Assembly: GCA_003175985.1 (NCBI GenBank)
Contig: PSRJ01000239.1
Location: 1 to 47,615, forward strand
DNA: 47,615 nucleotides
Reading direction: 5' to 3'
Source of the DNA: Terriglobia bacterium
GTDB taxonomy: Bacteria > Acidobacteriota > Terriglobia > Bryobacterales > Bryobacteraceae
In this document: one piece after another, positions 12,591 through 18,173 of the stretch
Layout: the number at the start of each line of letters is the position of its first letter
Numbering within the stretch: position 1 is the stretch's first letter
Program-made: the position numbers and the translations under genes
Notes under the pieces: generated by a model
Told to the model about the DNA's origin: nothing
Database searches by the model: none
The model's input: the letters and a program-made list of their open reading frames with translations, nothing else

Positions 12591-12619
12591 TCGACACCGC
12601 CGTTGGAAAGACATATAAT
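12591..12619 (+). promoter_or_regulatory. Strong sigma70-like promoter for the Mo-hydroxylase operon
   Basis: TCGACA (12591-12596), 17 bp spacer, TATAAT (12614-12619); the -10 lies between GGAAAG and CTTTCC arms. Confidence 0.6.
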
Positions 12620-12710
12620 CTTTCCGAATTCCGCCAGTCCGTGGGTTCTCGCGCTACTGTGCGGTTTGGTACGCGCGCGAAGGAATTGAAGTAGCGAGAT
12701 GAGGTGATCT

Positions 12711-13337
12711 ATGGCAGACAACGATTTTCCGGAAGGCACGCCGAAAGGGTGGAGCCGGCGCGATGTGATCAAGGGCGTCATCGCCGCCGGCGCTGTCTCC
12801 TCGGCCGGTTATCTGTTCCGAAGCTCGGTGGTACGCGCTGACGTTTCCGCTCCCGGTTCCGTCGAGCGCCTGATTACCCTGAACGTCAACGGCCAGCAGC
12901 GCCGCGTCGACGTAATGAAGCAGGAGACTCTCGCCACCACGCTCCGTTATAAGCTGGGCCTCACGGGCACCAAGCTGGGTTGCGACCGTTCCGAGTGCGG
13001 CGCTTGCACGGTGTTGATCGACGACGTTCCGCATTACTCGTGTTCGATGCTCACTCATACGGCGCGCGGCAAGAAGATCGTTACCATCGAAGGACTCGCC
13101 AGCGCGGAGGGCAAGCTGCACCCGGTGCAACAAGGCGTGGTCGAAGAACAGGGCTTCCAATGCGCGTTCTGCATGTCGGGCTTCATCATGGCCACGGTGG
13201 GATTCCTGAAGGTGAATCCCAATCCGACGCGCACGGAACTGGCTCACGGTATCTCCGGCAACCTCTGCCGGTGCCAGGACTATGACAAGATCCTCACCGC
13301 GATGATGCGCGGCGCGGAACTTTCCAGGAGGGCGTAA
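12711..13337 (+). CDS. Tat-exported (2Fe-2S)2 small subunit of a xanthine-dehydrogenase-family Mo hydroxylase (PaoA-like)
   Basis: Twin-arginine leader WSRRDVIKGVIAAGAVSSAGYL; GCDRSECGACTVLIDD; CAFCMSGFIM; GNLCRCQDYDKI. Confidence 0.92.
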   Translation: MADNDFPEGTPKGWSRRDVIKGVIAAGAVSSAGYLFRSSVVRADVSAPGSVERLITLNVNGQQRRVDVMKQETLATTLRYKLGLTGTKLGCDRSECGACTVLIDDVPHYSCSMLTHTARGKKIVTIEGLASAEGKLHPVQQGVVEEQGFQCAFCMSGFIMATVGFLKVNPNPTRTELAHGISGNLCRCQDYDKILTAMMRGAELSRRA

Positions 13338-13340
13338 TCC

Positions 13341-15878
13341 ATGGCCGCCAAAATCGATAACCAGCTTCCCAAGCATCCGCCATACAAACTGATCGGCAAA
13401 AACTACACCACACCCGATCTGATCGCCAAGGTGACGGGCCGCGCCAAGTACGCGGAAGACTACCGCGCCGACGGCATGCTGTTCGCCAAACTGCTTCTCA
13501 GCCCGGTGCCGCACGGACACGTGCGCAACATCGACGCCAGCGAGGCTCTGAAAATGCCGGGGGTGAAGGCCATCCTGACCGTCGACGACATGCCCAAACC
13601 GGCCGACGCGATGACGGATCTGGGGCAGCGTATTCCCGCCAACCCGCTGGGCGAGCGGGGGCTGACGAACGATCCGGTTTATCAGGGCGAGCCGATTCTG
13701 GCGGTCTGCGCGGTGGACGAATTGACGGCCGTCGAAGCGATCGAAAAGATCAAGCTCGATATCGAGCGGCTGCCGCACGCGGTTGATCCTCTAGTAAGTC
13801 TGCGCCCCGGCGGGCCCAACGCCCGTGTGGAGGGCAATGTCTGGATGCGGCCGACGGCGGCTCCCGGACAGCCCGCTCCACCTCCCAAGGTGGCCGAAGT
13901 CAAATGGACCGACGCGGATTTCGCCGAATACAAAGACGGCAAGCTGCCTATGGGAAAGGCGACCGATCCCGAGTGGTCCTACGGAGACGTGGAAGCCGGT
14001 CTCAAGAATGCCGCGCTCGTTCTGGACGAAACGTTCGTGACTCCCAACACCAGCCACCAGACGCTGGAAACCCGCACAGCGATGGCGTACTGGCAAAACG
14101 GCAAGGTCTACGTACACTGCTCCACGCAGAGCACGGCCCAGACCGCGCCGGCGATTGCCCGCTGGCTGGGCCTGGTAGATGACAAGGGCCAGCCCGATAT
14201 CAGCAAGGTGGTAGTCATCAGCGAATACACGGGCGGGGGCTTCGGCAGCAAGATCACCAGTTCCATCGCGGCGATCATCCCATGCATCCTTTCCAAGAAG
14301 GTCGGCGCGCCGGTGATGATGCGCATCAGCCGCGAGGAAGAGCACTTCATAGGCCGGGCTCGTCCCAGCCTGCACGGGCGGCTGAAGGTCGGCTTTACCA
14401 AGGAAGGTAGAATCACCGCGGTCGACATGTTCGTAGTAATGGATAACGGACCGTACGACCCGCAGGGCGATGCCAATCAGTCAGGCCGCATGCTCTCGTT
14501 GATGTACCAGCCTCCCGCCATGCGCTGGCGCGGCATTACGGTGCTGACCAACACGCCGCCGCGGCTTTCGCAAAGCCAGCCTGGCGGTTTTCAAGGTATT
14601 GCTCTGATGGAACCGATTCTCGCCAAAGCTTCCCGCAAGCTGGGCGTGGACCAGGTAGCCATCCACCGCGTCAACGCGCCCGTGGGGAAGGCTCCGATCG
14701 GACCTCCGGGACCAAACGGAAAGCGGCTCTACGTAACCAGTGCGTATGTCCAGGAAGCGCTGGACCGCGGGATCGAGCAGTTCCAGTGGGAAAAGCGCAA
14801 AGCGATGCCCAAGAAGAGCGGCTCGAAAGCGCGCGGAATCGGCGTGGCGACGAGCTGCTTCGTCGGCGGCTCCATTGGTTTTGACGGCCTGTGTGTGATC
14901 AAGCCGGATGGCAAGGTCTACATCCAGTCTGGAATCGGAAATCTGGGCACGGCCTCTGTCAGCGACTGCCATCGCGTGACCGCCGAAATGCTGGGGGTGC
15001 CGTGGGAGAAATGCGAGATCACCTGGGGCAGCACAGCGAAAAACCTGCCGTGGAGTTGTCCCTCGGGCGGCAGCCAGACTACTCACGCCCACACCCGTGC
15101 GGCTTACGCAGTCGCTCTGGATGCCAAAGACAAGCTGACTCAAATTGCCGCCAAGGATCTGGGGGGCAAGCCGGAAGACTACGAGGTAGCCAACGAGCGC
15201 GTGTTCCACAAGGGCGGCGGCCGCGGTATGACCCTCGCTCAGGCCGCCAAGCGGGCCGTTGAACTGGGCGGCATTTACGACGGCCACGAACTGCCGAAGG
15301 GCATCAACAAAATGACAGTGGCGTCGGCACAGGCGCTGGCGGGCCAGGGCCTGGTAGCCGTGGCGCGCGATACCATGCCGCGCGACGGCCAGACGCATTC
15401 GTATGTGGCCGGCTTCGCGGAAGTGGAAGTCGATCTGGAAACCGGCAAGTACCGGATCCTCGATTTCCTGGCCGTCGCCGACGTGGGCACCATCATTCAC
15501 CCGCGTGCGCTGGGCGGGCAGGTTCTCGGCCGGTCGATGCTGGGAATCGGTCACGCCATCGGGCAGAAGTGGGTCTACGACCAGCACTACGGGCTGCCCT
15601 TGGCCAAACGCTTCCATCACAACAAACCGCCTACGATTTTGGATGCTCCCGAAAAAATGGAATGGGCGGCGCTCGATATTCCCGATCCGGAAACGCCCAT
15701 CGGCGCGCGCGGCATCGGCGAGCCGCCGGTTGGCGCCGGCTGCATGGCTATCGTGAATGCTCTTTCGGACGCGCTCGGAGATGAAATCTTCCGCCGCGCG
15801 CCCGTGACCGCGGACGTCATTCTCGCTTCTCTCGAAGCGGGCAAACCGGCCACCGAGGGCCTGACGGCCCACATCTAG
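13341..15878 (+). CDS. Molybdopterin-binding large subunit, xanthine dehydrogenase / aldehyde oxidoreductase family (PaoC-like)
   Basis: TGRAKYAEDYRADGMLFAKLLLSPVPHGHV; GGGFGSK; C-terminal GIGEPPVGAG with catalytic-type Glu. Confidence 0.92.
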   Translation: MAAKIDNQLPKHPPYKLIGKNYTTPDLIAKVTGRAKYAEDYRADGMLFAKLLLSPVPHGHVRNIDASEALKMPGVKAILTVDDMPKPADAMTDLGQRIPANPLGERGLTNDPVYQGEPILAVCAVDELTAVEAIEKIKLDIERLPHAVDPLVSLRPGGPNARVEGNVWMRPTAAPGQPAPPPKVAEVKWTDADFAEYKDGKLPMGKATDPEWSYGDVEAGLKNAALVLDETFVTPNTSHQTLETRTAMAYWQNGKVYVHCSTQSTAQTAPAIARWLGLVDDKGQPDISKVVVISEYTGGGFGSKITSSIAAIIPCILSKKVGAPVMMRISREEEHFIGRARPSLHGRLKVGFTKEGRITAVDMFVVMDNGPYDPQGDANQSGRMLSLMYQPPAMRWRGITVLTNTPPRLSQSQPGGFQGIALMEPILAKASRKLGVDQVAIHRVNAPVGKAPIGPPGPNGKRLYVTSAYVQEALDRGIEQFQWEKRKAMPKKSGSKARGIGVATSCFVGGSIGFDGLCVIKPDGKVYIQSGIGNLGTASVSDCHRVTAEMLGVPWEKCEITWGSTAKNLPWSCPSGGSQTTHAHTRAAYAVALDAKDKLTQIAAKDLGGKPEDYEVANERVFHKGGGRGMTLAQAAKRAVELGGIYDGHELPKGINKMTVASAQALAGQGLVAVARDTMPRDGQTHSYVAGFAEVEVDLETGKYRILDFLAVADVGTIIHPRALGGQVLGRSMLGIGHAIGQKWVYDQHYGLPLAKRFHHNKPPTILDAPEKMEWAALDIPDPETPIGARGIGEPPVGAGCMAIVNALSDALGDEIFRRAPVTADVILASLEAGKPATEGLTAHI

Positions 15879-15898
15879 GCAGAAAGGAGAAACGGGAT

Positions 15899-16915
15899 AT
15901 GGCGATCGTTCGCGACATCATGCCGGCATTTGAACTGTTTCAACCGGCGACCACTGACGATGCAGTCGGCCTGCTCGCAAAATACGGCAGAGATGCCTGG
16001 GTTATGGGCGGCGGCCTCGATACGTTCGACTGGCTCAAAGACCGCATCAAGCGTCCTTCGGTGGTGGTCGATCTGAGCCAGGTCAATGACCTGACCGGTA
16101 TCCGGCCAATGGGAGGAGGGCTCGAAATCGGCGCTCTCACTACGCTCACTGAAATAGTGCGGAATCCCGTGGTGAAGGAGAAGTTCGGCCTTCTCCACCA
16201 GGCTGCCGAACTGGTGGCTTCTCCCCAGATCCGCAACCAGGGCACCATCGGCGGCAATGTTTCGCAGGACGCCCGCTGCTGGTATTATCGCGGCGGCTGG
16301 AAGTGCTATCGCGCGGGCGGCAATATCTGCTTCGCCGATACGCCCTCGGCTATTAACCGCGAGCATGCCATCCTGGACGCGGATCGCTGCGTGGCGGTCA
16401 ATCCGTCCGACACGGCGCCGGCCTTGATCGCACTCGAGGCCCAGATGGTGATCCGCAACCGCAAAGGCGAACGCGTGGTGGAGGCCGAGGACTATTTCAT
16501 CGGACCCGCCACCGATATCACGCGCATGACCATCCTGAAGCCCGGTGATCTGCTGACCGCTATCCGGATTCCGGATAAATGGGCGGGAGCCACCTTCTAT
16601 TTTGAGAAGGTTCGCGACCGGCAGGTATGGGATTTCCCGCTGGTCAACGTCGCTTCGGCGGCGGTCTATTCGGGCGGTAATATCGAACGGATCCGGATTG
16701 CAGTGAACGGCGTCGCCGCGCACCCGGTGCGCTTGAAAGCCGTCGAGGATGCCGTGCGAGGGAAGCCGCGCAACGCCGCTACCGCCGATATGGCGGGACA
16801 GTTGGCGATTCAGGGCGCGGAGCCCCTGCGCTACAACGGCTATAAGGTACCGCTTCTGCGCAACCTGGTGAAGCGCTCGATTCGAGGGGTAGAGGAGGCA
16901 ACGTGGGCATCGTAG
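15899..16915 (+). CDS. FAD-binding subunit with 4Fe-4S-type Cys insertion (PaoB / 4-hydroxybenzoyl-CoA reductase beta-like)
   Basis: WVMGGGLDTFDWLKD; QIRNQGTIGGNVSQ; four Cys C-x8-C-x7-C-x19-C in the insertion. Confidence 0.9.
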   Translation: MAIVRDIMPAFELFQPATTDDAVGLLAKYGRDAWVMGGGLDTFDWLKDRIKRPSVVVDLSQVNDLTGIRPMGGGLEIGALTTLTEIVRNPVVKEKFGLLHQAAELVASPQIRNQGTIGGNVSQDARCWYYRGGWKCYRAGGNICFADTPSAINREHAILDADRCVAVNPSDTAPALIALEAQMVIRNRKGERVVEAEDYFIGPATDITRMTILKPGDLLTAIRIPDKWAGATFYFEKVRDRQVWDFPLVNVASAAVYSGGNIERIRIAVNGVAAHPVRLKAVEDAVRGKPRNAATADMAGQLAIQGAEPLRYNGYKVPLLRNLVKRSIRGVEEATWAS

Positions 16916-17745
16916 AGTGGGCGACCAGTCCTTGGGGTGAAGACGTTCCCATTCACATTTCGTTTTTCCTGTTGTGGGTCTCGGCGATCGCCGGGTTGCT
17001 GTTCCTGATTGGGCACGCCATCTGGGTGAAAGCCTTCGCCAAACCCGAGAAGTTTGCGGCGTCCGGCCCTCCCTACCGCGACGTGCACATTCCCGCGAAG
17101 GTACCGCGGCACTCTTTGGCGGCGCGGCTATTCCACTGGGTGATGGCCGCCGCCATGTTGGCGCTGCTCATCACAGCGTTTCTTCCGAAGGTCGGGGTAC
17201 AATTCCCGTGGGTCACGTACCATTGGATCGCCGGCATCGTCCTGACGGCGTCGATTCTGTTTCACATCATCCATGCCAGTTTTTACATGGATTTCTGGTC
17301 CATCTGGCCCGACAAAATCGATATCGAGGATGCCGGCCGACGGTGGCGTCGCGCTACTGGGAAGGACTCTCCCGCGCCACGCCGGTTCGCGAAATATCCG
17401 CTCGAAAACAAGATGTATCACGGCGTGATCGTGCTGGCCGGCCTTTCCGTCATGCTGACGGGCATCTTCATGATGTTCCGTGTACGTACGGTGCTCTTCC
17501 CACGCAACCCGTACCTGTTCGGCGATATGACGTGGGGGTTGATGTACGTGCTCCATGGCCTGGCAGGCGTCGGCCTGATCGCTCTGATTATGGTGCACAT
17601 CTACTTTGCGGTGCGGCCCGAAAAACTGGTCATTACCAAATCGATGATCTTCGGAACGCTCGATCGCGAGCATTACCTGGAACACCACGATCCCTCGCGC
17701 TGGGCTGCGGACGGATCCTCCGGGAGAGCGAAGGCCGCGTCCTGA
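16903..17745 (+). CDS. Membrane cytochrome b (b561 / formate dehydrogenase gamma-like) subunit
   Basis: GTG start overlaps the FAD-subunit end; multiple TM helices with His candidates LFHWVMAA, YHWIAGIVL, FHIIHASFY, MYHGVIVL, VLHGLAG, VHIYFAV. Confidence 0.85.
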   Translation: MGIVEWATSPWGEDVPIHISFFLLWVSAIAGLLFLIGHAIWVKAFAKPEKFAASGPPYRDVHIPAKVPRHSLAARLFHWVMAAAMLALLITAFLPKVGVQFPWVTYHWIAGIVLTASILFHIIHASFYMDFWSIWPDKIDIEDAGRRWRRATGKDSPAPRRFAKYPLENKMYHGVIVLAGLSVMLTGIFMMFRVRTVLFPRNPYLFGDMTWGLMYVLHGLAGVGLIALIMVHIYFAVRPEKLVITKSMIFGTLDREHYLEHHDPSRWAADGSSGRAKAAS

Positions 17746-17747
17746 AA

Positions 17748-18173
17748 ATGCTGGAGGATATCCGGCAGCGCTGCGACGCCATCGAAGAGTGCTACGAATT
17801 CATGCTGGCTTACGCCGCCCAGGGTCTGCCTGGGGACTCGGGGAGCCAGTCTGGAGGGCAACTCCGTGAACTGCTGCGCCGCGCTATTGAGGCGCTCTCC
17901 GGCCTTGCGGAAACCTATTCCGCCGAGGTGAGACGCCAGCGATTGCGCCCGGCCGAGCAATACCTGGCTTTCCTGCACGTGCTCGACCGCGATGCCCGCG
18001 ATTCGCTGGCGGCTCTCGAATTGGTGCTGGCCCAGCCTTCGCTCAGCTCCCAATTAATCGACAATCTGAACGCATCGATTCATCTGCGCGCGCTCCTCAC
18101 GGACTTGTTTCTCATCGATGAGATCTTAAAGGCGCATCACGCCGCGGCCACACCCGCCGAAGCTGAATCCTGA
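17748..18173 (+). CDS. Small alpha-helical protein of unknown function
   Basis: ATG at 17748, 2 nt after the cytochrome b stop; 141 aa (MLEDIRQRCDAIEECYEFMLAYAAQG...). The ORF-track start at 16974 lies inside the cytochrome gene and is not used. Confidence 0.65.
   Translation: MLEDIRQRCDAIEECYEFMLAYAAQGLPGDSGSQSGGQLRELLRRAIEALSGLAETYSAEVRRQRLRPAEQYLAFLHVLDRDARDSLAALELVLAQPSLSSQLIDNLNASIHLRALLTDLFLIDEILKAHHAAATPAEAES

Follow-up and report, generated by a model that had tools for sequence, protein, structure and literature searches.

The window analysed here, a contig of 47,615 nucleotides (PSRJ01000239.1; C155 of our genome G000) from a Terriglobia bacterium of the family Bryobacteraceae, carries within positions 12591-18173 five tightly packed genes, all on the forward strand. 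According to open reading frame (ORF) calls and the Pfam and NCBIfam profiles, they comprise an iron-sulfur (FeS), a molybdenum (Mo) and an FAD subunit of a Mo hydroxylase, a membrane cytochrome b and a small protein of 141 amino acids (aa) (Table 1). The first gene begins at 12711, the interval from 12591 taking in about 120 nt of upstream DNA; the cytochrome gene has a GTG start and shares its first 13 nt with the end of the FAD gene, and 2 nt separate it from the gene of the 141-aa protein. All five ORFs, with this overlap and gap, are present as the initial annotation had described them. The source genome is 7.4 Mb in size, 92% complete and contains 13 matches to MoCoBD_1.

Table 1. Genes and sequence features of the five-gene operon, in window coordinates.
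Feature	Position	Strand	Basis
Small FeS subunit, 208 aa, with N-terminal Tat signal (SRRDVIK) and two [2Fe-2S] clusters	12711..13337	+	Fer2, Fer2_2 over Pfam cut-off
Approximate Tat signal region, residues 1-43	12711..12839	+	TIGR01409 match at residues 14-43; RR at 16-17
Mo-cofactor subunit, xanthine oxidase family, 845 aa	13341..15878	+	MoCoBD_1, MoCoBD_2, Ald_Xan_dh_C over Pfam cut-off
FAD subunit, 338 aa	15899..16915	+	FAD_binding_5, CO_deh_flav_C over Pfam cut-off
[4Fe-4S] insert in FAD subunit (C127, C136, C144, C164)	16277..16390	+	Alignment with PaoB
Membrane cytochrome b, formate dehydrogenase gamma type, 280 aa, five predicted helices	16903..17745	+	Ni_hydr_CYTB
141-aa cytoplasmic helical protein, conserved family without a name	17748..18173	+	29 aligned homologues, structure model

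The distribution of the genes was studied in 150 genomes of the family and 396 genomes of the phylum Acidobacteriota, the phylum tally counting FAD subunits above about 400 bits (the split FAD gene of G265 included) and cytochromes above about 150 bits; loci, genomes and families are given by our own handles (L, G and f). Across the phylum, the FAD orthologue and the cytochrome are each found in 40 of the 396 genomes and both in 38, a co-occurrence with a Fisher p of about 4e-48, uncorrected for kinship. The FAD subunit stands without the cytochrome in G308 and G440, and the cytochrome without the FAD subunit in G226 and in G385, where the FAD gene is cut by a contig end. Within the family, the cytochrome occurs in 16 of the 150 genomes. 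The 141-aa protein occurs in 17, since G036 retains it with no more than a stub of the cytochrome (L089 3309-3893). Of 458 stretches encoding a relative, the 80 best named loci, a set that favours near relatives, were compared for gene order: the complete five-gene order is found in 59 of them, the absent genes lying mostly beyond a contig end, and the small protein follows the cytochrome in 79. The operon is therefore real and far from a chance arrangement, since the same order recurs throughout the phylum, and the view of the initial annotation that the cytochrome belongs to the hydroxylase operon is borne out by these counts, which run against two outcomes that it named as refuting, a cytochrome not conserved with the hydroxylase and one from an unrelated operon.

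Some departures from the common order concern the Mo gene. It is missing between the FeS and FAD genes in the f30 genomes and at L179-L182, and the three f30 genomes that were searched have it elsewhere; at L178 it is placed after the small protein. Where the Mo gene is displaced, the block of FAD subunit, cytochrome and small protein is unbroken. L092 and L094 have no local Mo gene, and the same genomes encode a Mo subunit elsewhere at 59-60% identity. An apparent loss of most of the Mo subunit at L093 turned out to be a search artefact, the full ORF being present. The carriers are mostly metagenome-assembled genomes of Acidobacteriota; the sequence records place many of them in peat, soil or groundwater. 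A few bear the label Binataceae, Syntrophobacteraceae or Deltaproteobacteria, and in one such non-acidobacterial family, 3 of 41 genomes carry the cytochrome at 66-67% identity; this suggests real transfer, the alternative being errors in binning.

The three hydroxylase subunits belong to the xanthine oxidase family: the MoCoBD, the two [2Fe-2S] and the FAD domains all exceed their Pfam cut-offs, and the catalytic glutamate, Glu794 of the Mo subunit, is in place. In alignments of 35-40 sequences together with PaoABC, the periplasmic aldehyde oxidoreductase of E. coli, this residue is nearly invariant and falls on the glutamate of the GVGE motif of PaoC. In the small subunit, the arginine pair and eight cysteines are invariant among 35 homologues, and the Tat signal scores 17.3 bits against a TIGR01409 cut-off of 16.7; C127, C136, C144 and C164 of the FAD subunit are invariant in 40 sequences and align with cysteines of PaoB. 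One position differs within the family. The arginine of the PaoC AMRAPG motif, presumably a residue of the substrate pocket, is replaced by serine in the Mo subunit of the window and its close relatives and is retained as arginine in many orthologues, and because of this variation, substrate preference may differ from one member to another.

The description of the enzyme as "PaoABC-like" stands for the architecture, in which the small subunit bears a Tat signal and the FAD subunit a [4Fe-4S] cluster, and fails as an assignment to that family. The NCBIfam equivalog cut-offs are missed for both PaoA (132.8 of 322 bits) and PaoC (236.6 of 1180 bits), and on most subunits, the models of 4-hydroxybenzoyl-CoA reductase (HcrABC) outscore the Pao models; these too fall short of their own equivalog cut-offs on all three subunits (152.5 of 257.8, 324.5 of 994.55 and 177.9 of 404.55 bits). 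Among solved structures, the best relatives of the Mo subunit are the alpha subunit of 4-hydroxybenzoyl-CoA reductase (5e-56) and then PaoC (2.5e-49), and those of the FAD subunit are the AOX medium subunit (5y6q), HcrB (1rm6) and PaoB (5g5g). Neither system is a full match. PaoABC shares the FeS, FAD and Mo modules and differs in its gene order, paoA-paoB-paoC against FeS-Mo-FAD here, in its adjacent paoD, which the operon lacks, and in having neither the cytochrome b nor the 141-aa protein. HcrABC gives top or near-top models for the subunits and likewise has a [4Fe-4S] cluster in the FAD subunit, whereas the scores here are far under its cut-offs and the present enzyme is predicted to be Tat-exported and cytochrome-linked. 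Because the cut-offs fail, no XdhC/PaoD gene lies inside the operon, and 4-hydroxybenzoyl-CoA reductase mostly scores higher, the best reading is that the operon encodes not PaoABC itself but a system that works as PaoABC would with a quinone module of the FdnI type attached.

That second module is the cytochrome. It belongs to Ni_hydr_CYTB (PF01292; 76.7 bits against a gathering score of 30.1) and misses the equivalog cut-off of formate dehydrogenase gamma (TIGR01583; 44.7 against 115.85 bits). With a profile of 26 homologues, the sole strong relative of solved structure is FdnI, the cytochrome b556 of E. coli formate dehydrogenase N (1kqf_C, E 1.8e-10), which is also the top fold match (E 1.5e-6) of the structure model (pLDDT 85). 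H78, H107, H218 and H232 align with the heme-ligand histidines of FdnI, and they are invariant in all 26 homologues, including relatives of 20-23% identity; all four ligands of an FdnI-like di-heme cytochrome b are thus conserved, contrary to the lack of heme ligands that the initial annotation had named as refuting. The likeness to FdnI, then, lies in the predicted fold and these four histidines, and the differences in an additional N-terminal helix in the model, in three further invariant histidines (H38, H121 and H173) and in a partner from another molybdoenzyme family. The extra helix may replace the membrane helix that FdnH supplies in formate dehydrogenase. The three histidines are predicted to lie toward the cytoplasmic half of the membrane; they are not known to have a role in FdnI, and a third heme or a part in a quinone site are possible functions. 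The average number of lysines and arginines, 1.0 in the N-terminal 20 residues, 4.5 in loop 1, 6.5 in loop 3 and 6.0 at the C terminus, fits a topology with the N terminus outside and loops 1 and 3 and the C terminus in the cytoplasm, which would expose the conserved PWG segment to the periplasm, where the exported enzyme is expected. Distant cytochromes of the same type (about 25% identical; families f11 and f62) are also found near other Mo hydroxylase genes, at L208 8789-15152 and L072 1-4246, and they suggest a second pairing of this type of cytochrome with the Mo hydroxylase class.

The last gene encodes what the initial annotation called an orphan, and the name holds as far as known families go: the protein matches no Pfam or NCBIfam family above chance, no PDB sequence and, at E <= 0.001, none of the PDB folds. 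Weak sequence matches to a viral fusion protein and a nucleoporin, and weak fold matches to a FAT domain and HepT, were judged to be chance. It is, on the other hand, a newly defined conserved family with a clear experimental handle, in which an alignment of 29 sequences shows S101, Q102, D105, N108, H112, R114, T118, D119 and E125 to be invariant; the model is helical and confident (pLDDT 92.3, pTM 0.84), and the sequence has no apparent signal peptide. In the 396 genomes, every intact copy adjoins the cytochrome, the exception being a decayed remnant of 42 residues in G233 (C25:32574-32699). The protein tracks the cytochrome and not the hydroxylase, since it stays with the cytochrome at loci from which hydroxylase genes have moved or been lost and is missing from the hydroxylase copies that lack a cytochrome.

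Taken together, the modules probably make up a membrane-bound, periplasm-facing hydroxylase or dehydrogenase of the xanthine oxidase family, with quinone receiving the electrons. In PaoABC, the Tat signal of PaoA directs the export of the whole trimer (PMC4273604). By analogy, the three soluble subunits would receive their cofactors in the cytoplasm and leave it jointly by means of the signal on the FeS subunit. At the Mo site, a small substrate, probably an aldehyde or a heterocycle, would be oxidised, and the electrons would pass through the two [2Fe-2S] clusters to the FAD and [4Fe-4S] cluster, a route whose binding residues are conserved and whose order is taken from homologues. The trimer would then dock on the cytochrome, plausibly through the extra N-terminal periplasmic segment and the first helix, and electrons could travel, as they do in FdnI, by hemes bP (H107/H218) and bC (H78/H232) until they reach a quinone site facing the cytoplasm; such a route would be charge-separating. 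The 141-aa protein would stay in the cytoplasm and, less certainly than the other steps, help the cytochrome or the membrane complex to assemble or to remain stable, a role suggested by their travelling together.

Several observations weigh against this proposal. There are FeS-Mo-FAD copies without a cytochrome (L194, L195, L196, L197, L200, L201, L202 and L203), so that the enzyme can apparently work without one or share one in trans; the operons of the f48 clade have four genes and no 141-aa protein; cytochrome copies stand without hydroxylase neighbours at L065, L066 and L075; and the putative quinone site is placed by analogy with FdnI only. Because some hydroxylase copies have no cytochrome, the link between the two is strong and not absolute. 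Nearly all of the cytochrome-less copies, these eight among them, share their genome with a full operon, and at L195 a second Mo subunit stands beside the trimer. In the FAD tree, they nest among the cytochrome-bearing ones, with about four changes needed, and that of L195 (N_L195) is a near twin of the full operon in its own genome. This pattern is most simply read as duplications after which the copies lost the cytochrome; they may share one in trans.

The same copies, together with the stand-alone cytochromes at L065 and L066, are what could be said for a trimer that is soluble in the periplasm like PaoABC, with a cytochrome that is an independent carrier or serves another partner and is co-located through shared regulation. 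The overlap of the genes, their order and their co-occurrence are much too regular for an independent cytochrome, however, and the same type of cytochrome binds its FeS partner directly in formate dehydrogenase N; as most of the cytochrome-less copies also sit in genomes retaining the full operon, we consider this arrangement quite unlikely. Still harder to accept is an enzyme running in reverse, as a quinol-driven dehydroxylase akin to 4-hydroxybenzoyl-CoA reductase and fed through the cytochrome. The closest models and PDB chain of the Mo subunit do come from that reductase, and the [4Fe-4S] insert is common to it; it requires a donor of very low potential, however, unlike quinol, and a CoA thioester is not expected in the periplasm. 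PaoB shares the insert, yet PaoABC oxidises aldehydes (PMC3958847).

The role of the 141-aa protein is the more delicate question. It could be a chaperone dedicated to the hydroxylase, proofreading its Mo cofactor or Tat export in place of XdhC/PaoD: it is soluble, helical and last in the operon, as paoD lies downstream of paoABC, and in the genome of the window no XdhC_CoxI or XdhC_C domain was found despite the thirteen Mo hydroxylase matches. With the assembly 92% complete and XdhC present in relatives that carry the operon, that absence is probably a matter of incompleteness; a relative of the same genus (G134) likewise has no XdhC_C. The argument of the initial annotation, which proposed an assembly factor on the ground that the window has no chaperone of the XdhC/PaoD type, is weakened by XdhC being encoded elsewhere in 138 of the 150 family genomes, including the near-complete operon carriers G112 and G148, and at several loci, XdhC or MocA genes even adjoin the operon. 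The small protein, moreover, is absent from all the cytochrome-less hydroxylase copies examined and from the f48 operons, and it remains with the cytochrome where adjacent hydroxylase genes are gone (L075, L127); no similarity of the XdhC/PaoD or TorD/NarJ type was seen in Pfam or NCBIfam or among the folds listed for it. As the protein follows the cytochrome rather than the hydroxylase, a generic Mo-cofactor chaperone is disfavoured, the dedicated one appears unlikely, and a role in the assembly or stability of the cytochrome or the complex is the one that we tentatively prefer, at somewhat less than even confidence.

If the reading of the operon as a quinone-linked periplasmic dehydrogenase holds, the nearest functional precedent is the quinone-linked Mo aldehyde dehydrogenase of acetic acid bacteria, a membrane-bound enzyme on the periplasmic side with a molybdopterin cytosine dinucleotide (MCD) cofactor, a heme c cytochrome and a link to ubiquinone (PMC9171043). 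The present operon differs in having a membrane cytochrome b in place of heme c. To our knowledge, the acetic acid bacterial enzyme also has no FAD/[4Fe-4S] subunit. Each module is thus familiar, and the operon is a conserved and apparently undescribed variant; we found no description of the five-gene set in open-access papers, which is no proof of novelty. As of 2014, PaoABC was reported to have no identified terminal electron acceptor (PMC3958847), and a quinone-type cytochrome b beside a PaoABC-similar enzyme offers one branch of the family an answer that can be put directly to the test. It also suggests that the abundant, mostly uncultured Acidobacteriota of soil and peat could draw energy from small organic compounds that they oxidise outside the cytoplasm. 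A bolder extension, somewhat less likely than not, is that these operons represent a class of electrogenic respiratory dehydrogenases of the xanthine oxidase family, widespread in Acidobacteriota and present in a few other phyla, that reduce quinone through a formate dehydrogenase-type cytochrome b, possibly with a third heme at the extra invariant histidines, and need the new helical family for assembly of the membrane complex.

The surroundings of the operon add little on the substrate. In the window, a der GTPase gene upstream and a gene for a TPR protein downstream both lie outside the conserved unit, and clustering of the flanking ORFs revealed no widespread catabolic neighbour hinting at what is oxidised. 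ORF calls and Pfam give no XdhC/paoD-type chaperone gene within the operon; XdhC and/or MocA genes lie just downstream on the opposite strand at L173, L168, L150 and L146 (also L117 and L148), and in the clustering, they recur in about five loci each, which is consistent with a sulfurated MCD-type cofactor. Next to an f48 four-gene operon, at L063 8642-10342, lies an ORF that by eye resembles benzoylformate decarboxylase, a TPP enzyme and a possible source of aldehyde.

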